From contig NC_049982.1 in NCBI RefSeq assembly GCF_000003815.2, positions 7,669,849 to 7,733,848 of the forward strand: a stretch of 64,000 nucleotides of DNA, given 5' to 3'. The stretch comes from Branchiostoma floridae (Eukaryota; Chordata; Leptocardii; Amphioxiformes; Branchiostomatidae). The position numbers were made by a program, and so were the translations under genes. Positions 21,736 to 54,845 of this stretch are shown piece by piece. Each line of letters starts with the position of its first letter. The stretch's first letter is position 1. The notes beneath the pieces are model-generated. The model was not told the origin of the DNA, made no database searches, and saw nothing but the letters and a program-made list of their open reading frames with translations.

Positions 21736-21999
21736 GATGACCTAGTAACATCCCTGGTCAATCAGAATTTCATGCTTCCAAGACAACGTCTGTTTATCAG
21801 GGATCCCCTGCTTCCACTGGCTCCTTTGACCTATTTCTCTATTTTTAGACATCTATGGGTCGATTCAAGTCCTTTCAGGTGACTCCGTCACAAGTATTTT
21901 TCAACCGTTATAGAAGTTTCCCTAAGTAATTATATTAAATACAGAGTGATTTATATAATTTGCATCTCATTATGTTGATAATCATCCAAAGTACCTACC

Positions 22000-22690
22000 T
22001 ACCAAAAACAAAAAATATCCATCAATCCCCTCAGGAGTTATCCATCTAAAAAGTTACGAAATATAACACCCACTGCAATTCCAAACAAGCTGCTAGGGGG
22101 CCCAAAATTAGACCATTGACTCCTAGTACCAACAGCTATCCACCAGTAAAAAATCACGAACCTGGCACTTCTGGAAAATTTAGGCGCAAACTTTGATGCT
22201 CACTTGCAGTACCAAAACAATTTGCCAGGAGGCCCATTATCGAACTTGACCTTCCTTTCTGTGTCCCCTACCTATCAACCAAATATCATTAACATCCATC
22301 AAGAACATCTCGAGTTATCTTGCTTACAGACAAACGCACTTACATACAAAGCCAGCTACAGCACCATAGGTAAAAGGTAGCTAAACCATTCTCGCACATG
22401 GCAATCCTTTCCACAGCCGCTACAGACCTGCCAAATATCGTGGAAATCGCCCAGCTACATTTTGACTTATGCCTCCCGAAAAAACACCAAAAAAAAATAC
22501 TAAGCTCGCTAATGTACCATAGGAAAACGCCAGGTAACCCATTTTCGAACTAGGCATGCCTTTAAACAACCGCTACACACCTGCAAAAAATAAAAAAGTT
22601 CCATCCACAATTTCTCGAGTTATATCCTGTTGACCTACATACAGACCCAAGTCGGCAAAAACATAAGCTTCTTGGCGAAGCTAATAATTT
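22000..22690. repeat. Degenerate repeat block with CGAACTTGACC and CTCGAGTTAT motifs
   Basis: Two motifs recur with divergence. A CATCC motif followed by an AGTTATC-type block appears near 22018, 22295 and 22600. A CCCATT-CGAAC-CCTT block appears near 22090, 22213, 22370 and 22522, at intervals of roughly 120 to 155 bp. The block ends with ACATAAGCTTCTTGGCGAAGCTAATA, which links it to the dispersed repeats at 3165 and 20628. No long frame is present. It looks like an old, internally repeated non-coding element. Confidence 0.5.
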
Positions 22691-30575: not shown

Positions 30576-33191
30576 ATGGTTAACGTCATCCTGGAATCCG
30601 GAGGGGCCCAGGACCCCCTGCCGCAGGGCAAGACCAACTGGATGGGTCAGAACGGGCCGGGCGGCTGGTGCTCCATCAAGGTCAACAACGTCGAGCAGGG
30701 GCTCAACTCCATCGGTTCGTCCTGTAGTTTTACGTTAATCCGCTAGATGGCGTTATGATGTGGCATAAGCGGCCCTAAGGCAACCATTATCTGAAACCGC
30801 CTGTTACGGCAAAAATGGCGAATACTAGCAAAGCACATTTTGAACATATACCCGATCTTTGAACATTGAATACATATTTATCAAGGAGTGCTGCAAATCC
30901 ACTTGATCATGCCTATACCGGCGTTATAGCTAAAATCGACTGCTCTGCCCGTCTATAGCACCTATGCCCAGTCGCCAGGAGGCGGTTTCCGTCTGGCTGG
31001 ACAGGTTAAGTCGCCGGGGTTTCCGTCCATTCCTGTACAGTATGTGACTATAGAGCGGACTCAAAACTACCAATACTCGAGCTCCATTTTCTCCTTCCCC
31101 GCAAAATGAAATCCCATCGAACTTAGATGCATTTACAGTATCTTATTACCTGCCTGTATAATCTTCATGTTCCTGGCAATAATAGACTATTGAAAAGTGA
31201 TGTCCTGTCTCAAAGACCACACAGTGTAGTCGCGTTATCAACCCTATAGTGTACATGCACCTCTGCAGGGTTTAACATCGTGGTTCTGAAGTTCCCCGAA
31301 CAGAACCCGCCGGAGCAGTACTCCTGCTTTGACACCTGCAAGGACCAGAATGCCTGCTTCACTCTGGCGGACTTCATCCAAAAAATCCAGCCGGTAGGTT
31401 ACGCTTTCGGTGGCCGGACAGCTAATAGCAGGCTATCGGCGTTGTCCTTTAACGTTTTCCCACTTTCTATTGATTTCTTTTATCATTGGGAGCGAGGAGG
31501 ACTTTGTTTATCTGTGTTCTTTGACAGCAGTTTGACATATAAAATCTTATAATGTACAGAAATTGTAAGGGTTGAAATGGATGTCAACCATCACGTTAAA
31601 GAAAAATTGACTACATATGCAGTATATAACACCTCCTTGGCATAAAGGCTGTGCAAATTGTACTTTTGCTATTACTTTACTCTACTAAGCGCGTGGAATG
31701 GATCTTTTGAATTTTGGTTGTGATGACAAGCATGATCACCTAGACGATTGTTTGTTTGTTTGTTTAACATGTTTAATTAACCTTCTCCAGGACCGCTACA
31801 AACTGATAAGTGCCTGTGGTTCCATTACTGACTACCTGTGCCAGCCTCTGTGATTTGTTTGTTTGTTTGTTTATTACTTGTTAATCCCCTCCAAGACCGC
31901 TACATCCTGATGAGTGCCTGTGGCTCCATCACTGACTGCCTGTGCCAGCCGCTGTGTGGTTTGTTTGTTTGTTTGTTTGTTTATCACTTGTTGAACCCCC
32001 TCCAAGACCGCTACATCCTGATGAGTGCCTGTGGCTCCATCACTGACTGCCTGTGCCAGCCGCTGTGTGGTTTGTTTGTTTGTTTGTTTGTTTATCACTT
32101 GTTGAACCCCCTCCAGGACCGTTACATCCTGATGAGTGCCTGTGGCTCCATCACTGACTGCCTGTGCCAGCCGCTGTGTGGTTTGTTTGTTTGTTTGTTT
32201 GTTTATCACTTGTTGAACCCCCTCCAGGACCGTTACATCCTGATGAGTGCCTGCGGCTCCATCACTGACTGCCTGTGCCAGCCGCTGTGTGACGAGCTGC
32301 GCGCGCTCGGGTCAGGCTACTTCAGCCGTAGCATGGACGAGCTCAGCGGGGGTGAGCACCTTTTACTAGCCTATACCAGGCTCCACAGGTCGATGGAAAA
32401 ATAGTATAAATTGGTCAAATAAGATAGAAAACACACCAGAGGAGTTAGATGGCCGAGGAATTCAGTTTGCGACCTGAGGCCAGGCCGGCCAACACTCCTA
32501 GACCAATTAACTCCTAGGATTTTTCCTAACTTGGCTAAAGTCCGCTATTACTATTCGGCCAGGAGAGAGCCTGGTAGAGACTAACCTTTTTCAGTCACTG
32601 GTTTATTGAGTGAACTCTCAAACACGACAAGTACGATTTATTTACAACCAACAGTATTCCCATATTAAAAGCTATTTAATTTAGTCTAATCTAATCTATT
32701 TAATCTAATACAGTAACACTAGTCTATTAAAAAATATTTTCACACCTTTGAGAGCACATGGGTTTCTGTTACAAAGTATTACACAGGTTTAGCAATGCAT
32801 GAGCTACAAACTCAAACCATATACAATATCAGCATTGCCTTACCTTAGACCTTAGATACTCCCGCAACACTGTTGCATTGGTCAACTCGGTGAGCATATT
32901 TTCTCCATAAGGTGCGGTCTTGAGAAGTAACCGCCATGCTTTCCATGTTGTTCAGACCCATTTCCCTTCCGTCTTAGTTTCAACATTGGTTTAAAACCGA
33001 CTTAAAACAAATCGATCATAGATTGACCGTGCATTGATTAATCGATCACTTTACTGATCACTGCCCTCGTTACTTCCCCAGCTCACAGGAACGAGTCCTG
33101 GGTGATGGTGGCCAGGAAGGGACACGGGCTCATCAAGGAGTGCTTCAAACCCGCAGGCCAGGGACCGTGCATTGACAGCGTCGACATCTAG
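30576..33191 (+). CDS. ILEI/PANDER-fold protein (FAM3-like), four exons
   Basis: Coding exons: 30576-30714, 31269-31393, 32228-32351 and 33082-33191, giving 165 residues with matching phases. The ILEI fold, known from FAM3 cytokine-like proteins and POMGNT1, is recognised by GFNIVVL, then CFDTC, LADFIQKI, DELRALGSGY and ESWVMVARKGHG. The ATG has a strong context (CACCATGG), and no ATG lies in the candidate upstream exon. No signal peptide is visible, unlike typical FAM3 proteins, so it may act inside the cell unless an unseen exon adds a leader; the frame is open upstream of the ATG within its exon. Cysteine content is high. Exon 3 is the last and only complete copy of a tandemly repeated exon fragment. 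The sugar- or partner-binding role is unknown. Confidence 0.8.
31785..32290 (+). repeat. Five tandem copies of the 5' end of ILEI exon 3
   Basis: Copies start at 31791, 31895, 32006, 32117 and 32228. The last four are spaced exactly 111 bp; the first is 104 bp from the second. Each unit holds a GTTT tract, a CTCCAG-type acceptor and the first 63 or so bases of exon 3 (DRYILMSACGSITDC). Only copy 5 continues into the rest of the exon and its donor. Copies 1, 4 and 5 keep CAG at the acceptor; in copies 2 and 3 it is CAA. Copy 1 is diverged (DRYKLISACGS) and runs into a stop. Because 111 is a multiple of 3 and the units lack stops, copies 2-5 form one open frame of 188 codons. Confidence 0.95.
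32365..32583. mobile_element. MITE with about 17-bp inverted ends
   Basis: ACTAGCCTATACCAGGCTC at the left and GAGCCTGGTAGAGACTA at the right are imperfect inverted repeats about 200 bp apart. The element begins only 13 bp after the exon 3 donor of the ILEI-fold gene. A related terminus lies at 21697-21735. No transposase frame is present. Confidence 0.55.
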
Positions 33192-33872: not shown

Positions 33873-35209
33873 CTACTTCACTGGTGAAACACAGGTAAAA
33901 GTTTGACAACAAGGTATGGAAAATATAGAATACGTTATATGTACTTGAAGTAAAACAAATATGTAAAGGTAAATCTTTAAATTACTAAGGTGTGCTGCAC
34001 TACTTGCAACAACGTCATGTTCTGAGTTGTCAGTATCGGCAGTGTCTACTCTGTGAAAAGTTGGCTTGTTATCTGGACCTGAATCAACATGTAAAGAAAT
34101 CACAGAGCCTTCTGAGGTTTTGGTGAAGACGACTTTAAACCCCTGTATGTACCACAGCGGGCCAGTGAAGACCATCCTCATCACGTGTTCTTGTACCAAC
34201 CCGGGCTGTAGATGCCCAGTTCCAAACAACCCGTATCGAAACCGTAGACTAGAAGATGCGAGGGAAAGGCGAACAGAGAAGTTTCCGAGAGCGGGACTGA
34301 AGTAGACACCGGCGTACTTTCGCAGGGGGTCAGAGGCAGTTGTTGTCGGTGCAGTCTGTTGGATTCCGCTAGTCGTCTCTCTTGAACGGCGCGAACTGAC
34401 AACAATATCTGCATCTGCTGACGGTTTGCTGAAGTAGCTAAATCCTGATAGAAACAAAGCACAAAAAATCCAGATCTTTATTTCCCCTCACACCACATCA
34501 TTCAAATGGTAAGATCTTAGGAATAGTGATCTTCGGAGGTACTGATATTAACTTACGTTTGTAACGCTAGTTCACCTCTATCCGAGGGGTTACCTAAATC
34601 CAGTTGTTTCTAAAAAAAAAGCAGGGCATTCATATATAATTAGCAATACTAGTATCAAATCAAAGGACGGCGGTTTCAGATTGCAACAATTTCAAAATAT
34701 TGCAGTTATTTTAAAAATGTTGCATCGCCCATCGACTTGACAAATCCCTAAGTAGCCTGTTTTCAAAAACCACTGGCGGATATAAGTTCTCCGCGGATAA
34801 GGGTGAACTGGCGGTGCTACATGTATATGATTTAAAAAAAAGTTTACGTTTATATATTATAAATGCTGATGACAAATTGAACCTTCAATGCTTCTCAAAG
34901 ATTATATATATTGCCTCACCATCAGAAGACCACGTATGTCTCCTGTGCCTGTGTTGACAGATTGTAGAGGAGTTCAGCCACGGAATTTTTCCTGGAGCAA
35001 AATGAAACTATTAGTCACCTTCATACGAAGGTTCATTCCCTCCAACTGTTTCCTCGTAACAAAAAAGAGCCTTGCACGGCAACTGATGAGACTAATCTTA
35101 ACTGACTTCCACAGAAACTTAAGGTGGGGTCATCAAGCATTGATGGCGTTGATGACGTAGTATACTCAATATGTGTATTACTAAAAATATTACACACACG
35201 CACCCACAT

Positions 35210-38200: not shown

Positions 38201-40281
38201 ATTGTTTTTGTTGTTGTTTATGTTTTTCAAACAATGTACGACCGCCATATTGGCGGCTAATCCTGGAAGAGCCAGACCNNNNNNNNNNNNNNNNNNNNNN
38301 NNNNNNNNNNNNNNNNNNNNNNNNNNNNNNNNNNNNNNNNNNNNNNNNNNNNNNNNNNNNNNNNNNNNNNNNNNNNNNACGGCTTGACCCTCCCCCTCCA
38401 GCACGTCCCGCGCCGTGTGCGTGTCCGCCATCCCCAGCGGTCCCGTCAGACGTCTGTGCAGCGCGTCCGTCCACGTGCCGTTGGTCAGACGCTCGAGCAC
38501 GTGGCCGGCCAGCCCGTACATCAGGTTACTGTAGGAGAACTCCGAGCGGAACGGGAGCCGCTCGTCAAAGTACCGCAGTCGGCTTGGAAAAGAGGATACA
38601 GAAGTTGACATTAACAGTCATCTCTTGATATATTGGTGCGTTAACTAGCATTAAAGTATATTTAGGATATAGATATCGCATTCATGTTAAGTCAATATCT
38701 TATTTCATTTGCGAAAAAAACGATCTTTTGATTTTATGTTTGTAATTGTTTTTGTTGTTGTTTATGTTTTTCAAACAATGTACGACCGCCATATTGGCGG
38801 CTAATCCTGGAAGAGCCAGACCCATAGAATTGTAAAAAAAATTCACAATCAAATGATGCGATTGTTATCAATGATACAAACTCAAATCTACGCGGCAACT
38901 TCCATGTTTAACCATCAATTATGGCGGACATCACCTACGTCACAGTCACGTGGGTGCAAACACGTTGTAGGCAGGTGTGGTATTACAGTATCAAATGTTG
39001 AAATGCAAATTCCCCAGATCTTAACGACAAGTTGACCACGGGGTTAATATAACATCCCCAGTCTCTAGGAAAATAAACACCAACGAGAAACGTGGGTCAT
39101 GTCGACACCCGGATCAGATAGAGGAACGTTTCAAATCGAACCAGCGCGTTGAGTGACGGCATGGCTGGGTGTAAGACTATCCGCCAATGTTTTCCTACGA
39201 ACACATGGTCTACATTAGCGGGCTGAGCCCGCCGTAAGGGGAGGCGTGATCAGGAAATCCGCCGCGAATTCAATTTCGCCCTGCGGGAGGGGAACAGTCG
39301 AGGCCTGACACTGAAATATCACAGCCATCGAAGGAGTGGAGAAAGTTGGAAGTACACTAAGACCGTCAGATATATTTTCGTGAAAATTATACTCCTGATA
39401 TGAAATTACATCAGCACAATAACGCCGTCACAAACTGACAAGAACGACATATACTTTCGAATTTCCTGGAATACTGTTAGATGGTTTGTTGGCTTGGTAT
39501 CAGTTCATGAATAGCGCTATTAATTCTTGCCTTCTTCATCTGAGACATACGTAAGTCAGGAATATATAGTCCTCATGCTGACCATACACAGTGTCGGATC
39601 AGACAAATGTAGGAAAAGAAAACTTGCATTTACTTTTAAACTGCCAAACTGATAGCGAGGTTTAGAGAATGTTGAATTTACATTATACTGCAGACATTCT
39701 AGCATCGAAAGATGACCCACCTGTTTTGAAAATTCTAGTTACTCTAAGCATAAGCTCAAAAAAGTATAAGTATAATATGAGTATAAAGAGTTATGATTAT
39801 ACCTTTCTAGCTGTTCGCCGGTTAGGTTCAGTCCCATCAACTGAAAGTGCGTATATTCCTCCAGTCCGACCTTGTGAGCCAGGATGTCACGAAGACAGAG
39901 ATCATGGGTTCGAAACTTGTCCGGCATTTCGAAGGAGTCCCCGAGAAGTTTCCTGAGGGGTGTGTCCCAGTCGACATCGTCCCTGTCGCCGAGAACATGT
40001 GCGGCGAGCGCGCTGGTGAACGCCTTCGTGAGCGATCCGATCGGGAACAGGGTGTGTCGGTCCACGGGCAGGGCACGCCGCACGTCCCGAAGACCGTACC
40101 AGCGCGTCTCAGTGTCCGAGCCGTACACCACGGCCAGGGCCATGCCGGGGATGCCCTTGCAGGCCATGACTTCTTCGATGAATTTGTCGAGCTGTACGAA
40201 AGCGTCACACCGTCCATTTGTCAGACAGAAGAACAACACAACCACGGGAAGTAAAAGGAGAGGAGCGCGACGCGTCCACAT
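33873..40281 (-). CDS. Secreted serine beta-lactamase-like protein, 7 exons
   Basis: Class C beta-lactamase/penicillin-binding-protein fold, 609 residues. Exons in transcript order: 39803-40281, 37763-38038, 37458-37561, 36201-36362, 35268-35432, 34920-34991, 33873-34444; all phases fit. Residues 1 to about 24 are a signal peptide (LLLLPVVVLFFCL). The three active-site motifs are present: Ser83-x-x-Lys86 in GSLTKAF, Tyr177-Ser-Asn179 in FSYSNLMYG, and His347-Gly-Gly in RLVHGGTLPSY. After the PWLN linker, the last exon encodes a C-terminal beta-rich domain of the kind often fused to this family (KYAGVYFSPALGNF). The tail from about residue 577 is hydrophobic and might be a membrane segment. 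Animal relatives act as serine hydrolases or peptidases; the substrate here is unknown. Exon 2 is partly duplicated beside an assembly gap. Confidence 0.9.
35195..35241. repeat. CA microsatellite in intron
   Basis: CACA units about 30 bp downstream (in the gene's direction) of the donor of the exon at 35268-35432. Simple repeat. Confidence 0.9.
38279..38378. other. Assembly gap of 100 N
   Basis: Exactly 100 N, the usual placeholder for a gap of unknown size. It lies between two identical copies of part of exon 2 and its intron, so the true sequence here may contain no extra DNA. Confidence 0.95.
38379..38822 (-). repeat. Duplicate of beta-lactamase-like exon 2 and intron (probable assembly artefact)
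   Basis: Bases 38388-38822 repeat 37844-38278 with an offset of 544 and no difference that I can see, including about 240 bp of intron. The copy of exon 2 (38388-38582) lacks the donor end and runs into the gap. Perfect identity of intron sequence and the 100-N gap point to overlapping contig ends that were not merged, rather than to a real exon duplication. Confidence 0.85.
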
Positions 40282-43200
40282 AGCTGGGTCCGGGAATCCG
40301 CTGCGGCTTATCAGTACGGCAAAGACCAGACGACTGGTGTCACTGATAACGCGCTATTACAGCGGACTGCTGGTTAACTCCTCACGGAGCGCCTGTCAAC
40401 ATCAAATGCCTCTTAACGACGATACAATCTACTGTAACGCACGTCTCCTGGTCGATTGATATATGTAGCTGGTTCTAACCGTATGAAACACCGGACAATT
40501 GCGTTAGACGTTATTTTCAGCGTTTAAAATTTTTCTCCTTGAGTGTCCTAGAAACGAGAAGCGCTTCCCGTGCCGAACCGTTATGATGATATATCTAGTA
40601 TATTCAAAGATCAAAGCGACTTCAGGAGAGAAAATAGACGCCGAACAATGACGATCGGAATCCTTTGAAAGCACCAATCCCTCCGCAGGTCCGATCATTA
40701 AGCTTGATTCATCCATGAATGGGTGAGATGGCGTCATTGATGGTAACCAATGGCGTCCGATCTTCAAACCCCAAATTCACAATATTCACAACCATCTCAA
40801 CCCATGCCCATGGCTTTATAAAAAAAATGGGCATATTTCATACAAAGCTTGTGTCAATAGTTTCTTCATACATCTTAATGAATCAATATTTCTTGGTGAG
40901 GGGATGAGACACTTTCATGTATGTTACTTCGCTAGCGGTATAAACGCACTAACCCTGCGTCCACCAAATGTTGGAGAGAGTCACTTCGTAGGTTTAAATG
41001 TAGCTGTGACTATTTTGAGCACTGCTTGATGTGTCGAAATATCAATACCGACGTCCTTGATAGACCTGTTGTGCTAGTAATAGGGAAACTAATTCGCTGA
41101 TATTCTTTTGTAGATAGGCCTACTTAGAATAGGGAGTGGGCAAGATACAGATCTTAAATTCTTTAATACATTACGAGATAACGCAGTCCCCTTGGACATT
41201 TTCCAAACTGTAAATTAAAAGCTTGTAAATCCTACCGGAAAGTAGGATCAGCGGTACGCGGGAAACTTTGCTATCTCTGCGGTGGCTTGCGTTCTCCAAA
41301 TGCCGTCTACATTTGTCTGTAAGAAAAAGATGTCATCTTTTCGGACAAGTCGAGTCATTTTGCACAAGAGATTTTGAATACCATGTTTGCTCATCCCTGT
41401 GGCTTCTTAGAAAATCATATGTGTGCAAAATGCAAAACCGCCAAGTTTTTATCACGTCACACCAGTCGTACCTACATCCTATACTCTACATTGATCCACT
41501 GACATGCACTTCCTATAACCTCCCCATCGCGTGGCACGAGCAAGACCACTTCGCTGTTCTGTAAACACCGTGTCAGCCCTGCCGCCGGTCTACTATCTCC
41601 CCATCTCCTGATGTGGTCTGCGGAGAATCACAGTCTGGAAAACTCTACTAAATTTAAGGAGCTTTGTTTTGTCGGGCGCTTTGATGATGGGGAGACGTAT
41701 TCTGAGCGCCTCGAGGGTCATTTCTATGATTGACGCGGGTTAATCTAATCTACAACACTCTTCTCACAGCTTAGACAACAGATAGAGGACACTATAAGTG
41801 TCCGGCCGAATACGTCGCGCGAAAACAAGCTGACGTCATTATATTGGGGTAACCGTCATTGAGGTACGGAGACGAGCTCAAGTTGTGACAACTGAATATA
41901 TAAACACCACCACTTGTATAATGGAAAGTATAATGTAACACAAGACAATTACATTTTTGAACATTTTGTTGTATGATTGAGGAAAAGGCTGTCTTTGATG
42001 AATCTGAGATGAAGTTAGCGGTTGATTCTGTCTGCCACAGCCTGCGCAAAATCGTACAACGAATTGGCTATTGACTTTTTTGTGACCAACCCGTAAGCCG
42101 GAAGATATTGACTTCATCATTTGACCTGGCAAACGTCGGAACTTGTCAGAAAAAATAAGAGAACGTTTGTTTATTTGTCCAATCTATGTTCAAAGTCCTC
42201 CCAAGAATGGACAGGCTCTTATTTATTTATCTGCTTGTTCCTGAAGGGTTTTTTCAAGCCTGACTTACCCCCACACCCCCGCTCTGATAACCGATCTGTT
42301 AGGTAAGACAGCATACCGTAAGTTTGTCCCATGAGTTTATCCTATTCGGTAGTATTTCTTATGAAAGAAATCTTATATTTGGCTCAAATCACAGATGTTG
42401 CAATATACAAACGTTCTAGACGAAAGACGTCGTTGATAAGTTTCTAATAATACTGTTATAAAAATTGTTTCATTTGACACATATCAATGACAGTCGGAAC
42501 TCGATAACATGCATTAAGGATCTCTATTAGGCCATCAACATAATATCATGTTACTGTTGAATTTATGATCATGAGTTAACGCATGTGTCACAGATACACT
42601 GGTCTATCCCTATCCTATCTGTCTGCCATCCCTTCAACACAGGACTCGCCATAGTTCCTTCAGCAGCCTGCCTTCCGTCAAACGCCAGATCCCGTCTTAA
42701 TCACCCTAAACCCCTCGCCAACAACTTCTAATACTTTTCAATTACTCGCGCCATTCAATCCAGGTCTTAGGTCTCCGAGCGGGTGTAAGATTCCGCTCAG
42801 TCGGAAAGAAAGAGTCGGTCGGGCCGACCTCTGGAGCACCTGTCCCCCCTGTGTACTGGTCGATTATCCGGGGGATTATGGGATCGTTTGCGCTTTGTTC
42901 TCTGCCAAGTTTCTGAGCGTGTTAATTGCCGAAAAAGCTCTACTAAATCTAATATTCTAACTGCCTGTTCTTAAAAGAAAACACTCCATTACAATACACA
43001 ATTGCTTTTTCAACAGGCATCCCATCTTCAGGTGTGGTCCTGCGCTAAGTGACCCGTTCAATGCTGACACCAGTGAACTGCACGGTGTGCCTGATCTTAT
43101 CTCCCAGCAGAGGGTGAGTCTCGGTGATATAGTAGAAGTCGCGGAGATATAGTAGTAGTCGGTCTGCTTGGAGAATATGCCTGGTCAGTACTGCAATTCG

Positions 43201-43924: not shown

Positions 43925-44062
43925 CTCAGTCAGATTCTGTAGGAAGATTGGCTCACATTCCGTACTACCTCTTCAGTCAGACTTGTCAGGAAGATTGACG
44001 CATAGTCCACACGACATCTTCATTCAGTCTCTGCAGGAAGATTGTCTCACATTTTGCTCGAA
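43925..44062 (+). repeat. Minisatellite of about 48 bp, three decayed copies
   Basis: GGAAGATTG recurs at 43942, 43989 and 44037, each time preceded by a CAGTC-type block and followed by CACAT- or CGCAT-like bases. The units differ by small indels, so the frame shifts between copies, and a protein repeat is unlikely. Confidence 0.6.
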
Positions 44063-45255: not shown

Positions 45256-48200
45256 ATGGCTCACCGCGGACGAGCTCAGAGGGTAGATCGTCGCCCGCCT
45301 CCCGTACCGGCCGGGAGGAACAGGGGTAAGTTGTGCACAAGTTTTGCCTGGACGTATTACATAGTACTACTACAGTCATATACGCTATTTGGGACGAGAA
45401 ATACTACATGTATTTTTAGATCGGTGCAGGCGTGATTGGAGTTGTGTAACTACTTTATAACACTGTAAAGCTTTCCTGCCCTTAACTGCGTATATCCGCG
45501 TACATTGTACGTTGATTTGTTAAAGCTACTTAAGATCAAAACCCGCCGTACGTGTTTTTTGTCCGTATGGAGGGAGACCGTGTCCGCCACGTGCTTGCAA
45601 CGTACGATCTCGTATGCAGGCCGTCCTTGCAGGTCTTGCTTACGTACTATTTCCTCACTCAGTCTCATGTTGTAAGTGCGCGCGTAAGTACTGGCTCGTA
45701 CAGGTGGTGAATAGGCAGCCCGAACGCAGAGAAAGTTCTGCGCTTAAAGTGCTACAACGTGTCTGTGTGCTACCAAGTCGGATTTCGTACGCAGGCGGTA
45801 CTTACTACTTACGGATCCCAAAGGATTGCCCACGTGTTTTGCACGTAGACAGCACGCAGTTGCACGTACGGTGGGTTGTGCCCTTTAGCTGCCGCTACCA
45901 GCCCAAAGCTGCCTCGGCAGACCCGTGTAATGAGTTGTTTCATTGTCAATAAAGAAAGAAAGCTTGAAATGGTGCGTGTTTGATGCTATGATACAAGGTG
46001 TTTCAACGTTACGGTTGTTAAAAAGCTATCTCAATGTAGCCAATGTCTCCCATGTTTGTCTCCCATGTTTGTCACAAAAGATCTGGACAAGCTTAGCTCT
46101 ATGACAGAAACTTCCGGGAGACGGCCGAATCGTAAACATAGCTTCGTACGTATTGAGCGACATGACATACGCTTGAGCTAGGATTCGTCCGAGTTTTCAA
46201 AGTGTGACGGCCAGAATTGCATTTAAAAGCATCATTGATATTTTCAGTGATTTTTCCCGACAGTCTCTTTCCCAAGACCCAATGACCTTGACCCCCGTAA
46301 CTAGATGCCCTCGTGCGACCTTATGTTGTATTGCATTATAGGAGAACATGGTGACATTCGCAAACCTGTGCCATAAGTCGGCACCAATCTGAGCAATTTG
46401 TCCCCTAAAAATACATTATCTTTTAAGTTTATAAAAAAACAAAATGACGGAAATGGGCGCAAAATTGCGCAATTCATGATATTTTATAGTATCTTCCATA
46501 TACTGCGCCAAGTATCGTAAGTGAGCATGCTTTTATCACTACAAATCTCCTTTTGGTGCATGCATTTTTTATGCATTGTCCATGTACATTGGCTTTCAAT
46601 CCAGTGACAACACTGCTATTTCCTATAACCTGCTCATCTGGGCAAGTCACTGTGACGACAAGGGATATTGGTGCGGCACAAAAAGTTGGCCAAATTTCCT
46701 GACTCATTAATTTTGCGCAGTCCAGGGAAATACCCGCCTTGATACTTCGTCCACGTCATGTACAAAGGTCCATTTTTCGGAATAATATTATTTGTCACCA
46801 GGTTATAACGATTTAGCTGTTGATAAAGACCTTGGCTTCCCGTATTTGTTTAATGACTTCAAATACCAGAGTTACCAACCTAGGATTGATGTGTTCAAAA
46901 ATTCGTATTTTCCCAGAACTATCATGGTGTGGAATTTGTTATCACTAAGTACAGTAGGGGCGTCTTCTCTGGATAGTTTTAAAGAACGCTTGCAGATAGA
47001 TGTGCAAAAGTTAGGTGTGACGGATCGTTCAGTGTAATATAACCAGCTGCTGCCGCACCGCCTGCCTGCGAAGCTGGTGTGTTACGCCGAAGGGCAGTTT
47101 TACCGGCTATATAGATACAGATACAGATACAGAAATCATGAGTTGCCCTTCTGCCCTCACAGTTGGGATTGTTGGTGATGGAAACGCCGTGATGAACTTT
47201 GCGGGCGGACAGCCTTATGTTAACGTAGGAGCTGCCCGGGAGGTTCTCGCACAAGGTAGAACTTATTATTTTGTTGTTCTTTGCATTTATTAAAAATGTC
47301 ACCAGCAAACTGACTATGACAACCACTGTCAATTCTCTTATATCACCCATGCTACATGATGGGGTGCATCATTTAGCAGTTTTTGGTGTTACGAGAAACA
47401 TAATTGTTTATTTTTTGTTTGTTTGTTTGTTTGTTTGTTTGTTTGTTTGTTTGTTAGAAAATGATTTTTTGTTTTGTTTTCAATACTTTTCTGTATTTCT
47501 TTTTTCAGAACCCAACGACAGATGGTCTTATCAGACCTTTAGTAACGATGTCACCGGCTTTATCAACGACCTGTCCTCAACAGCAGGGTCCCATCGCTAT
47601 TCGGTTGAACACCGTGTACGAAAAGAATATTTGCCCAAATTTCGCCCAGACCTGAAACGTGACCCTTTGAAGAAATTTTCAGAATGTAGGCGTGTACTGA
47701 CAGAGGTTAGCAGCCAAGACAAAATCCCGTCAATCGCAAAAACTGGCCTGAAACTGCTCAAAGAACTTGTTTTGTCCGACCCTATCAAGATTGAAACCTC
47801 AGAGAAGCTCGTGACTCACGAGGAAATATTGCGCAAAAGTTTGGACGCTCAGGCGTTCAATCAGCAGGATCAGATTGAGCAACAACTGCGAGTGGAGACA
47901 TACGCATTCGTGTTGTCTTGTGTCAGTCTCCACTACTGCAAGGGGACTTTGAACCCCCCAAGTGGTGGATTCTGGCAACCCCTGACGTGCGTGCGCGACT
48001 TCCTGAAAACCATTCGAGGCGAAACGTGTGCTCTGAAATCAGCTGTTTTCTTTGCTTTGGAAGCGATTTCAAGGCTCATAGATTCTGAAGAAAAGAAGTC
48101 AAAGGCATTGTTGACAAAACTTTCGAAATTCTTAGCATTTATCGAAGTAGAGGCTAAAAAGCAGGACCCCTTAACAGACAAGTTGATAAAGAAGGTGACA

Positions 48201-51200
48201 AAATACGTCAACAGTGTCAGCAGCTACGACGAAGATCTGGCCCTCATCTATCTGTCTGTGTTGGTGAGTCTGACAAATATTCCAACAATTCTATATTAGT
48301 CATAAATGGTATTTAAACATATGTTTCAGTTGGCTCATTTTGATACATCTTACTTTTAAATGACGAGCCATTTCAATGTTGAACGGATCCTCTATGTGCA
48401 TTTGATGTTTTAAGATTGCCTCCAATTATGACGCACATTTGAAATGCTTGAACGTCACAGGCAGCTTTTAGGCATCAAAGTTCACTAACGTTATTTCACT
48501 GCAGGCACGGACAGCTCCGGGTGGTCTGGTGTGCCTCCAGCTCCTGGCGGAATGCCGGGTACACCGCATGGAGACCGAGAGGAAGAAGCTGAGGCTGAAG
48601 AAAACCACACAGCAAGAGCCCAGCTGGTCAGTCCTCCATCGAGTCGCTTGGTACATGATTCGACTGGCAAAGGATACGGGCACTCCAAAAGGTACGTGTT
48701 GTCTAAAACTTCGACCCCTGGAACAGCTTTGAAAATCAAAATCGTTTTGTAAATTTGGCTACCTCTTCTCGTTGTTTCAACGTAATGACTACACAGCATT
48801 TACTGCAATGATACCTATGTACGTAAAGATGTTTCATCAATGATGTTACATTTTCCACCTCTTAGCAACCCGTATTCAAGCCGTCCAAGCTGACGACACC
48901 ATGTGTCTGGGCTCCTTTTGGACCAACCCAGATCTGAAGAAGATCGGTGACTTCCAGACGGCACACAGCCTCATCATGGCGATGTGTGAAGATCTCATCT
49001 ACTCAGACATCAGCGAGATCGCCGAGGCAGTCACTCCGCCTCTCCTGGTCCGAAGAGGCACGATTGACTGCAGCAAGCTCTTGTATGTTTACGGTCTTCG
49101 TTCATATATAATCCATATACTCTTTATATATCCATATCAGCGCAGTTCACCAGTGAAGTGGCTGTGATACCAGATATGGTGTAGTTTGTCATGACTAAAA
49201 TTTGTGAAAGAAGACGACGGCGACTCGGCAGCTATAATAGGTTTGGAAACCATGATTATGATTTGTTGCACTAGAGAGCTACGGTGTACCTGGCATGTCT
49301 TTTGCACAAATATGCACTTTGTTAATAGCCCTGGTATCACGATTCTTATGTAGAGACCGAGTGCTTCCCAAACACCTTGCATACCACCACCATGATGAAG
49401 ATCTCGAGGTGTTTCCAGAGCTTCTCCACCAAAGTAACAACAGTGTCATCTACCAAGGTGTGAAGGGCGCCAGACAGAACCACGTCGCTGTTAAAGTCGC
49501 CAGTGTTCAAAACCTGGAGAGCTCCAATCATCGTCTGCACGATACCAGCACGACGGCTTGCAAAAGTAATCTTCTTTGTTAACGTCACATGCATGTGTGT
49601 TTTATCCTAAAGTGAATGTAGCAAACGCCAATAATCTGTTGCCTCGCCACTCGCGAACAAAGTCGTAAAATTACCGCACACCTTAGTAACTTGAAGTTTA
49701 ACTTAACATTACGAACGACATTTCATGGTCTTCATATTCTGGAAGGGTGACAAAATTACTTTCTTGATATCTAGGGATCCAAGAGGAAATCAGAGTCCTC
49801 AAACGGCTAAAGCACCCGAACATCATCAACCTGTTGGACTCAAGTGTGAAATCTCCTGTTCATTACGTCATGGATCTGATGACGCACGGCAATCTGCTGG
49901 TCTACCTCCGGAAGCACAGGAGCCCGGTGCTGCCGCCTCAGCAGCTGTTTGACATCGCCATACAGGTTATCCGAGCTCTGGTGTATCTGCAAGGGGACAA
50001 AACTGTACACCGGTATGTAATAGTTATCATGTTTGGAATTGTTTCTTAGCAGGGGAACGAATGAGACAAATGCAGATCACGCTCCAGATCTATCCCAATG
50101 TTTACGTGACGTTATGTTTGGTACTTTTTTATCTTGTCGCAGCAATATTTCAACGTTTTGAACTGCTCTAATGACCCGTTGTGGTAAATGAAATAAGTGC
50201 TATAACGTTAATTGTTTTGGTACCACAGTATGGTCATGGCCAAGAATGTCCTGGTGACTTTGGAGGACGGGGAACTGAAATGCAGACTCAGTGGTTTCTG
50301 CAAGGCAAGGAAGGCAAAGGAATCAAAACCGTACGCAGTCCAAGATTGTCTGACGTACTTTAAAGGTACTACTCCTATTCATCCATCTGAATAGAATTTG
50401 GCTTTCAGATAGCTAGTGCTATAACTCATTTATGGGCTCTCCTCGATTTATGTTATATTCTTCAGACTTTTCAACCAATGGAAATTGCAAACTTTACCTT
50501 TAACGACTTTTTCAACTTTGTTATCTTTTCTACATACATAATGTTACATTGTAGGTTTGTAGATTGTAGTCATGACGTACTTGTGTTATTTATACAGGAT
50601 CTTGGAACGAACAGATGCCTCTGAGGTTTCTTGCTCCGGAGTCTTTAGTCGCGCAGTGGTACTCCGCCAAGAGTGACATGTGGTCATTTGGAGTATTTTT
50701 GTACGAATTGTTCACTTGCGGGGCCGTGCCGTACCAGGAGTTCAACTGTATGTCAACAGATGACCTCCTGTTCAGGGTAAGCTCTAGCCTTCTGACAATG
50801 GACCCTATACCAATGTAAATTCTGTTCAATAATTCGCTATGTATCTTGTACGGTTCTCATCTAGTCATGATCGCCATACGTTTGTCAATTTGTATATCAC
50901 AGTATTACAATACGCCATAACTTTACGTCCATATTCCTGTAGTCATAGACCTTAGACGAGGCGAGTGCCATTGTATAGATTGATTTATCATTGTTGCCTT
51001 ACATTGTGCAAATGTCGTTCATTCATTCTTATATGTCTCTTGTTTTCTGTAATCATTTTTCGTGACAATGATAATGAGTATATCCTGATAAGATTTTGAT
51101 ATAGCATTTGAGCAACCATATGCATCTGGATTTGAAAAAAACCCATAGGGAAGATCTAGACCTTTTACATTATGTTCGCCTCTTTCCTTTCTAGATCACC

Positions 51201-54200
51201 CGACAAGGCCTGAGAATGAAGCAGCCCCGTTGCGTGCCCACCAGCGTCTTCAAACTCATGAAAGCCCTCCTGAGAGTGGATGAGTTGGAGAGGCCGTCAG
51301 CAGACTTCATGCTCGATCAGGTCGAGCAGCTACAACCCAAGTACAGCGGTACAGGTGGGTTTTTATCTCCTAGTACTGTATGTAGGTATGTCTTTGATCA
51401 AGATTATGATCAACCTCAGAATGATTGATGATCTTTATTTCAATGTTCATTTATTTGGTAAAAGCTCTCAATTTTCTCACTTTTCTTAGAGGTCAGCGTT
51501 GTCACAATATTTACATTTGATCATTTTTCAGACGACGACTGGAGACCATTGCTGCCACCAATCGAGGACGTTGTCGATGCCTACGATTGTCAGGTATCGA
51601 TCCACGTTACACTTATTCACACCGCTCAGGTTGCCGTTCAAGGCCTTGTCTTATGTAGCCAACTGCTAGCTTCTGTCCTTGTACAGAGATAAGATATCTA
51701 GCGTTTTGTGTCTTGCAGAAGATTCCAGAGACACTGCTTAAACGGCTGAAGGACCCAGATGCCAGCAGAAGTGACAGAACAAGTATGGTGGACAATGTAA
51801 GTTATAGCATGGAAGGCATATTCTTTTAAATCTCTACAAATTCTCTCTCCAACTGTCACAATACTCTTTCGCATAAATGCATGCCACTTTTACTAAAGTG
51901 AATAATATTGTGTATCATTGCAGTGCTAGTGGTAAACTAGCTGTAGAATAGAGGCCCTCTTCACATCATTAAAAAATTAATGGAGTGTAAATTTAGCATT
52001 ACACCAACTCATCACTTGTTATTGCACGTGACTTTCCTCTTATCTTTGCTGTTGCTGTAGGCTCTGCAGGAATGCTACGACGACCTGATGTATGACTCTA
52101 TCGATAGACCAAAGCAAACGGTCCACAAGGAGGTACGTAACCCACCTATCTCATCTATATCCCTACGTTTGCAATACCTTTCTGCAGATGTCATTGTGGC
52201 TGTATTCCGACATCCTCATGTCTCATGAGTCATCACGCATACATGTATATATATATATGGCCTTCTTTGGTCAATATTGACCATGGTAAAATCCTAATTG
52301 ATATCAGCCCTACAGCGTCGACTGTGGCTAAACAGTCCTATACGAGAATGACAGTCTCTGCCACATATGGCACATCTGTAAGCTGACTCAGGTTACGCAT
52401 TACGCATACATGTAATGACCGTATTATCGCTTGTTGCAGGAAACCATGACGTTGGAAAAAGTGCCGAAGGCTCTGGCCTCTGTGGAGACGTACAGAGAGA
52501 TTCAGCCTGCCACCAAGGACTGCGAACAGCTGACGGCCATCAGGCGTCTGAAGGATCCTGCTCGGAGTGGAGAGGAGTTCGCCTGTCTGGTACGTAACTC
52601 TTCTGGTATACTAGTATCCTACTTCAATAGGCTTAGATATGTCGATTTTACTTTTCCACAGTTTACTCTAACGTAATGTTCAGCCGATGCTTTAAAATGT
52701 AAAAATATGAATGCTCCGATCCTTTGTTGTACCTAATTTCTCCATTTTGCATTTCTCCATTCAACTCACTTGGTTGTTGTTGTAGTGCAGCGTTTCAGAT
52801 TTAGAAAAATATGTATATATTATCACAGTACACAGCGAGGCCCTCGGCCGGCAACCTCCGTGACTACGTGGCCAGTAAGAGTTGCAGCAGCCCATCCCAG
52901 CTGGAAGATCTCTGTAAGGCAATGACTCAGGCACTACAGTATCTTCACGGGAAGGATGTCGTCCACAGAGACCTGCGACTCGAACATGTGTTCGTGGAGA
53001 ATGATAATGGCCAACTGAAGGTGTCTGTCATAGCTTATAGTGGTAACCTGCATTTTGAAACATTTATGTAACTGCACATGCTTTGTATGCTGTCAGTTTA
53101 GGTAACACAGAAGCTGCTCTGATACGATAGTAGAACTTTTCTGTCCCTTCTTCAAGGTAATGCTGGGCCGTTTTGGTCGGACCAAGAAGCTGCTCCAAGG
53201 CCCGTACGACCAGGACGTGTCGGAGAGCTACTTCGAGTACGGACGCCCTGGACCGGTGGATGCCAGCAGATGGTTCGTGTGCAAAGATGCGCAATCAATA
53301 TCATTATTGATTATTTTGCTGAGTATCTTTCCAGGCTGCTTTTAGATACACTAGTTCAAAAGGTCAATCTTAGAAGTCGAGTCAATTCAATTTATATGTA
53401 ACAACCTAGACTCTATTTTGTGAACAGTTTTGTAAGGGAGACTTCTTCTTTAAATCGCTCTGTAGGTCCCCGCCTGAGGTCCTGCACTTCGGCCTGTACT
53501 CCTTCAAGAGTGACATCTTCAGTTTGGGCACGGTGTTCCAAGAGTTATGGCAGGCATTCGACGCACCTATTGGAGCCAAGGCTCACCTGACGGTGCCTTA
53601 CCAGGGGATGAAGGCTGCTGAGGTGTGTACGATTGGCCTGATGTGTAGTGCAGTAGGCTAGGTATACGTACATTCAAAGCTGAAAAGAACATAGCGTTAA
53701 ACGCATGCATATGGAAAATTGTTGACCTTGTCACATCATAAACATCTTTGTCTGGTTCATCATGATACAAATAGGCGTCCATGGACCAGCTCGATTAACT
53801 TAGTAGCCTGCATCACGAGTTCCCTTTGTGATGAAAAGAAGTAGTCAAGTGGTAAGTGAATTCCTTTCATGATCAGAAATATTGAAATGTATTGTTGATG
53901 TATCCTACAGATCAAGGACTTCCTGGATAAGAACATGCCGTTGGAGAAGACGCCCACTTGTCCGGACTGGATGTTCCAGCTGATTCAGAAGTGCCGGGCC
54001 TATCATAACGTGGACAGGCCGACGCTGGAGGACATTCTGCAGGTTTTGGAGACTCAGTAAGCCATTACCTTACAAAATTAATGACGGAGGGTAAATGTCA
54101 AAGTAATTCATAATGTAGAATCTTGAGATAGATCATTTGTGTTTATTAGAAACTACAGCAAGGACAATCCTGCCCAAACCCTTAGATCAAATGTATAGCT

Positions 54201-54845
54201 GTGTTGTGAAAAATGTTGTAGAATATAGAAACAAACTGTACATGTGTGTCATTGTGAAAATCTCCAAAGTATGAAGTTCTCACCAAATCCTTATTTTCCT
54301 GACCCCTTCGACAGCGAGGTTCCCGGAGAATGGCAGGAAGACCCGTACATGTTTGACTACTATGCCCTGGTGAAATTGTTCGAACGAGAATCTTTCTCCG
54401 ACGATTCAGACCCTGATGTGTACGAAGACGTCGTCCCCAACGAGGTAAAACATTAGTTTTGTCAAAACAAAAGTGACCACTGCTTGTTGAAAAAAGTTTT
54501 TAATCTATTTAACTTTTGTATTGTGTATCTTATTACCTGGATATCGAACTTTTATCGACCTTGGGTTACTTCGTTTCTTTAGTTTTTTTTTTATTTTCTC
54601 TATAGGACCGTGCCGGTGGCGCTACGTGCTCCTCATCGGAACCGACGTATATGAACCTGCCTTTGTCGGGACATCATGGGACGACAGACGACCTGGACGC
54701 TGACTCGGATGAAGAGGAGGGTGCTGTGGGGGGTGAGGAGGGGGCACTGCAGGCATCTGCCATCTGGGCCGAACAACCTGTTCAGATGAGGGGTGGGTCG
54801 AAAAATACCAGGAGGAGGACCCGATACAGCATGTATCATTCTTAG
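45256..54845 (+). CDS. Tandem pseudokinase protein, 20 exons
   Basis: Unnamed protein of 1211 residues. Exons: 45256-45325, 47163-47255, 47509-48263, 48505-48691, 48866-49082, 49354-49565, 49775-50012, 50229-50365, 50598-50776, 51195-51354, 51532-51593, 51719-51796, 52061-52132, 52440-52589, 52829-53020, 53157-53272, 53466-53622, 53911-54056, 54270-54444, 54606-54845. All junctions are GT-AG and in phase. Residues 1-30 are basic and proline-rich. Residues about 55-440 are helical and unrecognised. Kinase-like domain 1 (about 455-750) resembles the tyrosine/TKL group: it keeps VAVK (Lys488) but has HRM for HRD and GFC for DFG. Domain 2 (about 825-1073) lacks VAIK, keeps HRD (918), has His923 for the catalytic Asn and RFG for DFG. 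The tail is acidic with YMNL (Tyr1147). No signal peptide or membrane segment is seen. A scaffold role in phosphotyrosine signalling is inferred. The first exon is the least certain part. Confidence 0.85.
46792..47135 (+). mobile_element. Non-LTR retrotransposon 3' remnant
   Basis: The frame 46792-47037 has the C-terminal signature of reverse transcriptase proteins of LINE elements: RIDVFKNSYFPRTI, then VWNLLS and SLDSFKERL. It is followed by a short 3' UTR (TGTTACGCCGAAGGGCAG, then CCGGCTATATA) and GATACA units, as at 4318-4395. It is 5'-truncated and sits in the first intron of the tandem pseudokinase gene, 28 bp before exon 2, in the same orientation as the gene. Confidence 0.8.
47413..47456. 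repeat. GTTT tetranucleotide repeat in intron
   Basis: About ten GTTT units some 55 bp upstream of the acceptor of the 755-base exon of the tandem pseudokinase gene. Similar GTTT tracts stand near acceptors at 31745-32210. Confidence 0.9.
49354..51354 (+). other. Kinase-like domain 1 exons (inactive)
   Basis: Five exons encode a nearly complete kinase fold. The N-lobe has NHVAVKVA and an alpha-C helix with IQEEIRVLKRLKHPNI. The catalytic loop reads HRMVMAKNVLV, where the Asp of HRD is Met but the Asn is kept. The metal-binding DFG reads GFC. The C-lobe is well preserved: RFLAPESL (APE), SDMWSFGVFLYELFT and a closing Arg in ERPSADF. The glycine loop is weak (LHQSNNSVIYQG). Loss of both aspartates predicts no phosphotransfer, while ATP binding through Lys488 remains possible. 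Confidence 0.85.
52440..54056 (+). other. Kinase-like domain 2 exons (inactive)
   Basis: Five exons encode a more degenerate kinase fold. No glycine loop or VAIK lysine is found; a hinge-like GNLRDYV follows AIRRLKDPARSG. The catalytic loop reads HRDLRLEHVFV, keeping the HRD Asp but with His for Asn. DFG reads RFG. The APE region is PPEVL, followed by SDIFSLGTVFQELW and DRPTLEDIL. The C-lobe core is thus preserved for folding, while metal and ATP binding are probably lost. Confidence 0.8.

Follow-up and report, generated by a model that had tools for sequence, protein, structure and literature searches.

A tandem pseudokinase gene of the lancelet Branchiostoma floridae and its paralogue: candidate scaffolds in phosphotyrosine signalling

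We explored a 64,000-nucleotide stretch of the Branchiostoma floridae genome (C4:7669849-7733848; hereafter the window), which carries between positions 45256 and 54845 a gene encoding two kinase-like domains in a single chain, behind a large N-terminal region. Both domains, here called pseudokinase domains 1 and 2 (PK1 and PK2), have lost catalytic residues, and a paralogue on contig C12 displays the same order of parts with matching losses. The analysis suggests that the product is probably a catalytically dead scaffold, presumably cytosolic, that works in phosphotyrosine signalling.

Gene model

The one animal genome searched comprises 513,431,437 bases in 431 contigs. Exons were placed on the + strand by reading frame, splice sites and phase, leading to a model of 19 exons and 1165 residues that opens with an ATG at 45256 and closes with a TAG ending at 54845. 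All 18 introns are of the GT-AG type, all exon phases join and the frame contains no internal stop, while 300 mononucleotide shufflings of the coding sequence gave 51.5 stops on average. The GC content of the coding sequence is 0.56, 0.39 and 0.63 at codon positions 1, 2 and 3, respectively, with 0.39 in the introns; position 2 is the GC minimum in all five blocks (N-terminal region, PK1, linker, PK2 and tail), and the base composition of the linker is of the coding type. The gap between the last PK1 exon and the next exon is only 177 bp. A preliminary description of this DNA, made from its letters, had proposed one continuous in-phase gene with two kinase-like domains; the rebuilt model bears this out and agrees with it at both ends, but is 46 residues shorter than the 1211-residue translation given there, which means that the two versions place some exon boundaries differently.

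Of all exons, exon 1 is the most tentative. Since exon 2 lacks a Met, translation has to begin in an exon further upstream, for which the ATG at 45256 is one candidate; the donor of this exon 1 (GGG/gtaagt) is in phase with exon 2. No RNA family reached its gathering score between positions 44000 and 56000 of the window.

Two kinase-like domains with lost catalytic residues

The whole protein matches the Pfam family PK_Tyr_Ser-Thr in two stretches (E-value 4.8e-71, 239.5 bits, for a cut-off of 23.1), and its best matches among PDB sequences include EGFR, PTK6, ABL and FGFR (best 60 of 2154). The preliminary description stated that PK1 lacks both catalytic aspartates, and the rebuilt model indeed reads HRM and GFC at the HRD and DFG motifs; since a domain that has lost the HRD Asp and/or the DFG Asp is classed as a pseudokinase, PK1 belongs there. 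Three catalytic residues are retained in addition, namely the VAVK Lys K457, the αC Glu E485 and the loop Asn N566, the VAVK motif being assigned by eye as the motif alignment is off by two residues at that place. The glycine loop contains zero glycines.

PK2 alone also matches PK_Tyr_Ser-Thr (E-value 3.1e-26, 92.7 bits, same cut-off), the alignment beginning only at profile position 80, or at position 55 with the Pkinase profile, which reflects a short N-terminal lobe (N-lobe). Its best PDB sequence matches are EGFR, an insulin-like receptor and ABL, with TYK2 lower (best 60 of 1271). No VAIK motif is recognisable and, in one alignment, a Gln occupies the αC Glu column. PK2 is thus a pseudokinase in the sense of having lost at least one of the VAIK Lys, HRD Asp and DFG Asp. 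The losses of VAIK, catalytic Asn and DFG Asp previously noted for this domain were all recovered, to which we add that the HRD Asp D887 is kept.

The tyrosines of the tail and linker sit in acidic or hydrophobic contexts (Table 1). The YMNL motif of the tail resembles Grb2/PI3K-type sites, and YEDV is similar to a general SH2 site.

Table 1. Features of the tandem pseudokinase gene, in window coordinates
Feature	Position	Strand	Residues	Remarks
Exon 1, candidate start exon	45256..45325	+		MAHRGRAQRVDRRPPPVPAGRNR; proline-rich; ATG flanked by C (-3) and G (+4)
Exons 2-4, N-terminal region	47509..49082	+	24-410	Without confident Pfam or PDB match
Exons 5-9, PK1	49354..51354	+	~414-714	PF07714, with its best stretch over residues 442-703
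PK1 catalytic loop, HRM for HRD	50008..50232	+	559-561	Interrupted by the exon 6/7 intron
PK1 GFC for DFG	50293..50301	+	582-584	
Exons 10-12, linker	51532..52132	+	719-789	YDDL and YDSI (YDDLMYDSI)
Exons 13-17, PK2	52440..54056	+	~790-1043	PF07714; shortened N-lobe
PK2 catalytic loop, HRDLRLEH	52964..52987	+	885-887 (HRD)	Asp D887 kept; catalytic Asn replaced by His 892
PK2 Arg at the DFG Asp position (GRFG)	53169..53171	+	R908	Aligned to GDFG of insulin-like receptor
Exons 18-19, tail	54315..54845	+	1043-1165	DPYMFDYYAL, DPDVYEDVV, EPTYMNLPL; acidic stretch; basic C-terminus

A paralogue with the same order of parts

A genome search with residues 1-409 (E-value ≤ 10) returned six matches, four in the window gene itself and two on contig C12 (8.4e-14 and 4.7e-6). 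In the C12 stretch, an unconstrained tblastn search identified counterparts of the N-terminal region, of PK1 and of the catalytic loop and activation segment of PK2, in the same order and on one strand. These stretches are open except for a single stop, which is located upstream of the acceptor site that was eventually selected. For 17 window exons (E2-E18), we then looked for equivalents among stop-free AG...GT candidates that share the phases of the window exons and are of comparable length. Such equivalents exist for twelve of them and occupy 11 exons of the paralogue, as we merged E6 and E7 into one open exon; the donor of E5 was a tie. In this stop-free, phase-matched search, E10-E13 and E18 have no clear best candidate. 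The PK1 and PK2 exons of the paralogue lie ~7.2 kb apart and no exon was found between them. The independent evidence for the paralogue consists of the tblastn order and of the identities, which amount to 213 of 651 residues over the N-terminal region and PK1 and to 78 of 200 over the C-terminal lobe (C-lobe) of PK2; the N-terminal region is collinear with its counterpart at 29% identity.

The motifs of the paralogue are HRNIRARK and GFE in PK1, where the catalytic Asn is a Lys, and HSDLRLGH and GRLS in PK2. The DFG Asp is hence lost from all four domains, replaced by Gly in both PK1s and by Arg in both PK2s. The two PK2s have the replacement of the catalytic Asn by His in common, and the HRD Asp of PK1 became Met in the window gene and Asn in the paralogue. 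Both PK1s have lost the glycine loop and retained the VxVK Lys and the αC Glu. All four domains have kept three scaffold features: the Ser-Asp of helix F, the APE Glu and an Arg-Pro towards the end of the C-lobe. The earlier suggestion that selection acts on folding and binding, as opposed to decay, is thereby strengthened, the paralogue keeping the part order, the C-lobe scaffold and the matching losses. Relatives with intact HRD and DFG, which had been considered as a sign of a local error, were looked for in this one paralogue, where the motifs are HRN/GFE and HSD/GRLS.

Downstream of the last kinase exon of the paralogue, a candidate exon has the phases of exon 18 (2 in, 0 out) and encodes IYDRPYEG, with no confident alignment to the tail. 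Further in the 3' direction, without a change of strand, two almost identical exons bearing YENP/YEDP motifs are followed by two open reading frames (ORFs) of the SH3 type (C12:16022048-16024971), one weak and one clear against the SH3_1 cut-off of 22.9 bits (19.6 and 26.7 bits, respectively). These exons and ORFs may be part of the paralogue or form a separate adaptor gene. Beyond them, an ORF at C12:16028953-16029216 looks immunoglobulin-like by eye (HEWYKDG...GEYRCHI) and has no Pfam match at E-value ≤ 10.

Age of the tandem arrangement and copy number

Across the two genes, the PK1s align to each other with 199 bits and 37% identity, and the C-lobes of the PK2s with 146 bits and 38% identity. 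PK1 against PK2 gives only 34 to 66 bits, no higher than against ordinary kinases of this genome (48 to 117 bits). When eight C-lobes were placed in a maximum-likelihood tree (few sequences, long branches, midpoint root), the PK1s grouped together with supports of 99/99 and the PK2s with 100/100, the PK1s being placed among the four ordinary kinases. The latter are the four of 12 loci that passed a filter itself requiring HRD..RN, and the DFG motif is intact in all four. The pairing of PK1 with PK1 and of PK2 with PK2 is most simply explained by a tandem order and shared replacements that predate the gene duplication. Because a paralogue with the same order and matching losses exists, decay or a local sequence error is very unlikely.

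No third family member was seen at E-value ≤ 10 with the N-terminal region of the window gene, which found only this gene and its C12 paralogue. With the PK2 of the paralogue as query, 150 of 177 candidates in the genome were scored and 123 matches obtained, the best one outside the C12 gene reaching 50.1 bits. The window's own PK2 exons score 36.1 and 26.8 bits in this search, below many ordinary kinases, so that the latter could conceal a further family member whose exons are short. Two other loci brought up by the PK2 search encode HRDVAARN and DFG (L041) and an ordinary-looking C-lobe (L042), and neither has a match to the N-terminal region at E-value ≤ 0.1. Clusters of kinase domains were observed elsewhere in the genome, for instance at C8:24052841-24140277, C12:602153-975578 and C7:24409479-24543957; many of these domains lie in uninterrupted frames of at least 900 residues, and the clusters have the appearance of intron-poor tyrosine kinase expansions.

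N-terminal region

Over residues 1-410, nothing exceeds the Pfam-A cut-offs. A search of PDB sequences with the N-terminal region, alone or as a two-sequence profile with the paralogue, returned no match at E-value ≤ 10. Two matches of exon 2, one to ELMO_ARM (21.8 to 25 bits, for a cut-off of 27; absent from the paralogue region) and one to NBAS_11th, were taken as chance because they are below cut-off and no Pfam family appears at E-value ≤ 1 in the N-terminal region of the paralogue. Structure prediction of exon 2 alone gave eleven helices with a mean predicted local distance difference test (pLDDT) score of 46.9. This low-confidence model of a single exon suggests that the N-terminal region is probably mostly helical.

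Genomic surroundings

A comparison of the 50 kb around the paralogue with the window, using ORFs of at least 30 residues and E-value ≤ 1e-4, yielded the tandem gene, a repeat element and a few scattered weak places. The repeat element lies at ~21990-22350 of the window, recurs to either side of the C12 paralogue and is probably a transposable element fragment. On the - strand of the window, ORFs between 33876 and 40353 encode a β-lactamase-type serine hydrolase domain (PF00144, 79.8 bits at 39742-40353); with a DUF3471 match under cut-off at 33876-34487, they are perhaps one esterase-like gene. A tandem repeat with a period of 111 bases spans 31832-32401, most of which is open in one frame on both strands.

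Relation to known kinases and pseudokinases

The nearest functional precedent is offered by PEAK1, PEAK2 and PEAK3 (NKF3), in which a catalytically dead kinase fold serves as a scaffold (PMC10279700). The likeness drawn here is one of function. The PEAK proteins have one pseudokinase domain each and dimerise via flanking (SHED) helices, whereas the single chain of the window protein contains two dead domains that differ from each other. ErbB3 is a pseudokinase of the tyrosine kinase group and, like CCK4/PTK7, a membrane receptor with a single kinase domain. CCK4/PTK7 is likewise described as a pseudokinase of this group (PMC8662651). The window protein resembles both in this respect and differs from them by having two such domains.

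Tandem kinase-like domains also occur outside animals. The WTK/TKP proteins are immune proteins of plants and belong to another kinase group. They have two kinase-like domains in a row, an example being the kinase-pseudokinase of Pm24 (PMC6997164). Their likeness to the window protein concerns the layout, and no homology is claimed. Two pseudokinase domains in one protein are further described for the trypanosome 'kinatases' (PMC2175518), which differ by carrying a dual-specificity phosphatase domain and leucine-rich repeats. The phrase 'two pseudokinase domains' also appears in PMC3827238. No lancelet tandem pseudokinase is named in the literature covered, mostly titles and starts of abstracts, which agrees with the earlier remark that no named protein is known to have this order of domains.

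Predicted function and alternatives

We favor the view that the window protein is a scaffold. PK1 and PK2 would fold without transferring phosphate and would provide allosteric and docking surfaces, while the N-terminal region would bind a receptor or another partner; a partner tyrosine kinase would phosphorylate the tyrosines of the tail and linker, which would recruit SH2 adaptors. Its mode of action would resemble that of the PEAK-type scaffolds, except that each chain holds two dead domains. Beyond the anatomy of the gene, all of this mechanism is what we infer, and the inactivity of both domains is predicted from their motifs.

JAKs are the known animal tyrosine kinases with tandem kinase domains, of which one, JH1, is active and the other dead. 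A JAK-derived gene, in which both the FERM-SH2 part and the kinase domain would have diverged and whose product would serve cytokine-type receptor signalling, would account for two tyrosine-kinase-type domains behind an N-terminal region of ~410 residues, as in the FERM-SH2-JH2-JH1 order, and for the presence of TYK2 (4oli) among the best 60 of 1271 PDB matches of PK2. However, the window protein has no FERM or SH2 match in Pfam at E-value ≤ 1, the DFG Asp is lost in both of its domains, and other tyrosine kinases rank above JAKs among the best 60 of 2154 and the best 60 of 1271 PDB sequences. FERM_F1 has a single match in the genome, on contig C2, where the adjoining 20 kb encodes HRDLAARN and DFG, and exon 2 is predicted, with low confidence, to be mostly helical. 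JAK descent was rejected, the protein lacking FERM and SH2 matches at that threshold, its C-terminal domain (HRDLRLEH and GRFG) not being of the active type and FERM_F1 being located elsewhere; this upholds the earlier remark that the layout is unlike that of JAKs and leaves a JAK origin very improbable. Still more doubtful is an MLKL-like executor, whose helical N-terminal effector, for example a membrane-active one, would be restrained by the pseudokinase domains and freed by an upstream kinase. A helical N-terminal region ahead of a pseudokinase domain is the layout of MLKL, and lancelets have expanded sets of immunity genes. Against this, no MLKL family was found in Pfam with exon 2 at E-value ≤ 10 or with the whole protein at E-value ≤ 1, tyrosine kinases are the best matches of the kinase domains among the matches listed, and two such domains are present. 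The four-helix-bundle domain of MLKL has no Pfam match here, and the pLDDT of the exon 2 model is too low for the fold to be resolved.

Atypical enzyme activity of PK1, PK2 or both, by way of a rewired active site, is unlikely, though kinases with unusual motifs can be active (WNK and haspin), SelO offers a further precedent for a rewired site, and the VAVK Lys, αC Glu and loop Asn of PK1 and the HRD Asp of PK2 are kept. Neither domain has the metal-binding DFG Asp in either gene, PK1 has lost its glycine loop in both copies, and the VAIK of PK2 is unrecognisable in the window gene. Two adjacent genes, or a decaying pseudogene, could be suspected from the distance between the PK1 and PK2 exons of the paralogue; in the window, the short gap, the joining phases and the coding-type linker speak against two genes, and a pseudogene is at odds with 19 exons that contain neither a stop nor a frame break and with paralogue stretches open save for one stop before the chosen acceptor. 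Both versions are accordingly held to be highly improbable.

Several observations nevertheless weigh against the scaffold reading or against the paralogue that supports it. The residues kept in the two domains may permit some nucleotide chemistry. The matching phases and open frames of the paralogue were partly built into the exon search and do not count as independent evidence. This search found neither the linker nor the N-lobe of PK2 in the paralogue, whose status as a single continuous gene is therefore putative. The tail has one weak candidate counterpart there, and short tyrosine motifs could be due to chance.

Conclusion

The window gene and its C12 paralogue may well constitute a separate scaffold family derived from tyrosine kinases, in which two domains that died before the duplication and a new helical N-terminal domain would form one signalling platform, and to which the C12 member may add tyrosine motifs with one clear and one weak SH3 domain. 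If this is true, two genes that each carry two dead domains would represent a tandem kinase module kept purely for folding and binding, and would provide a natural test of a JAK-like tandem arrangement without catalysis. An N-terminal region of ~400 residues without confident Pfam or PDB match would be a further yield.

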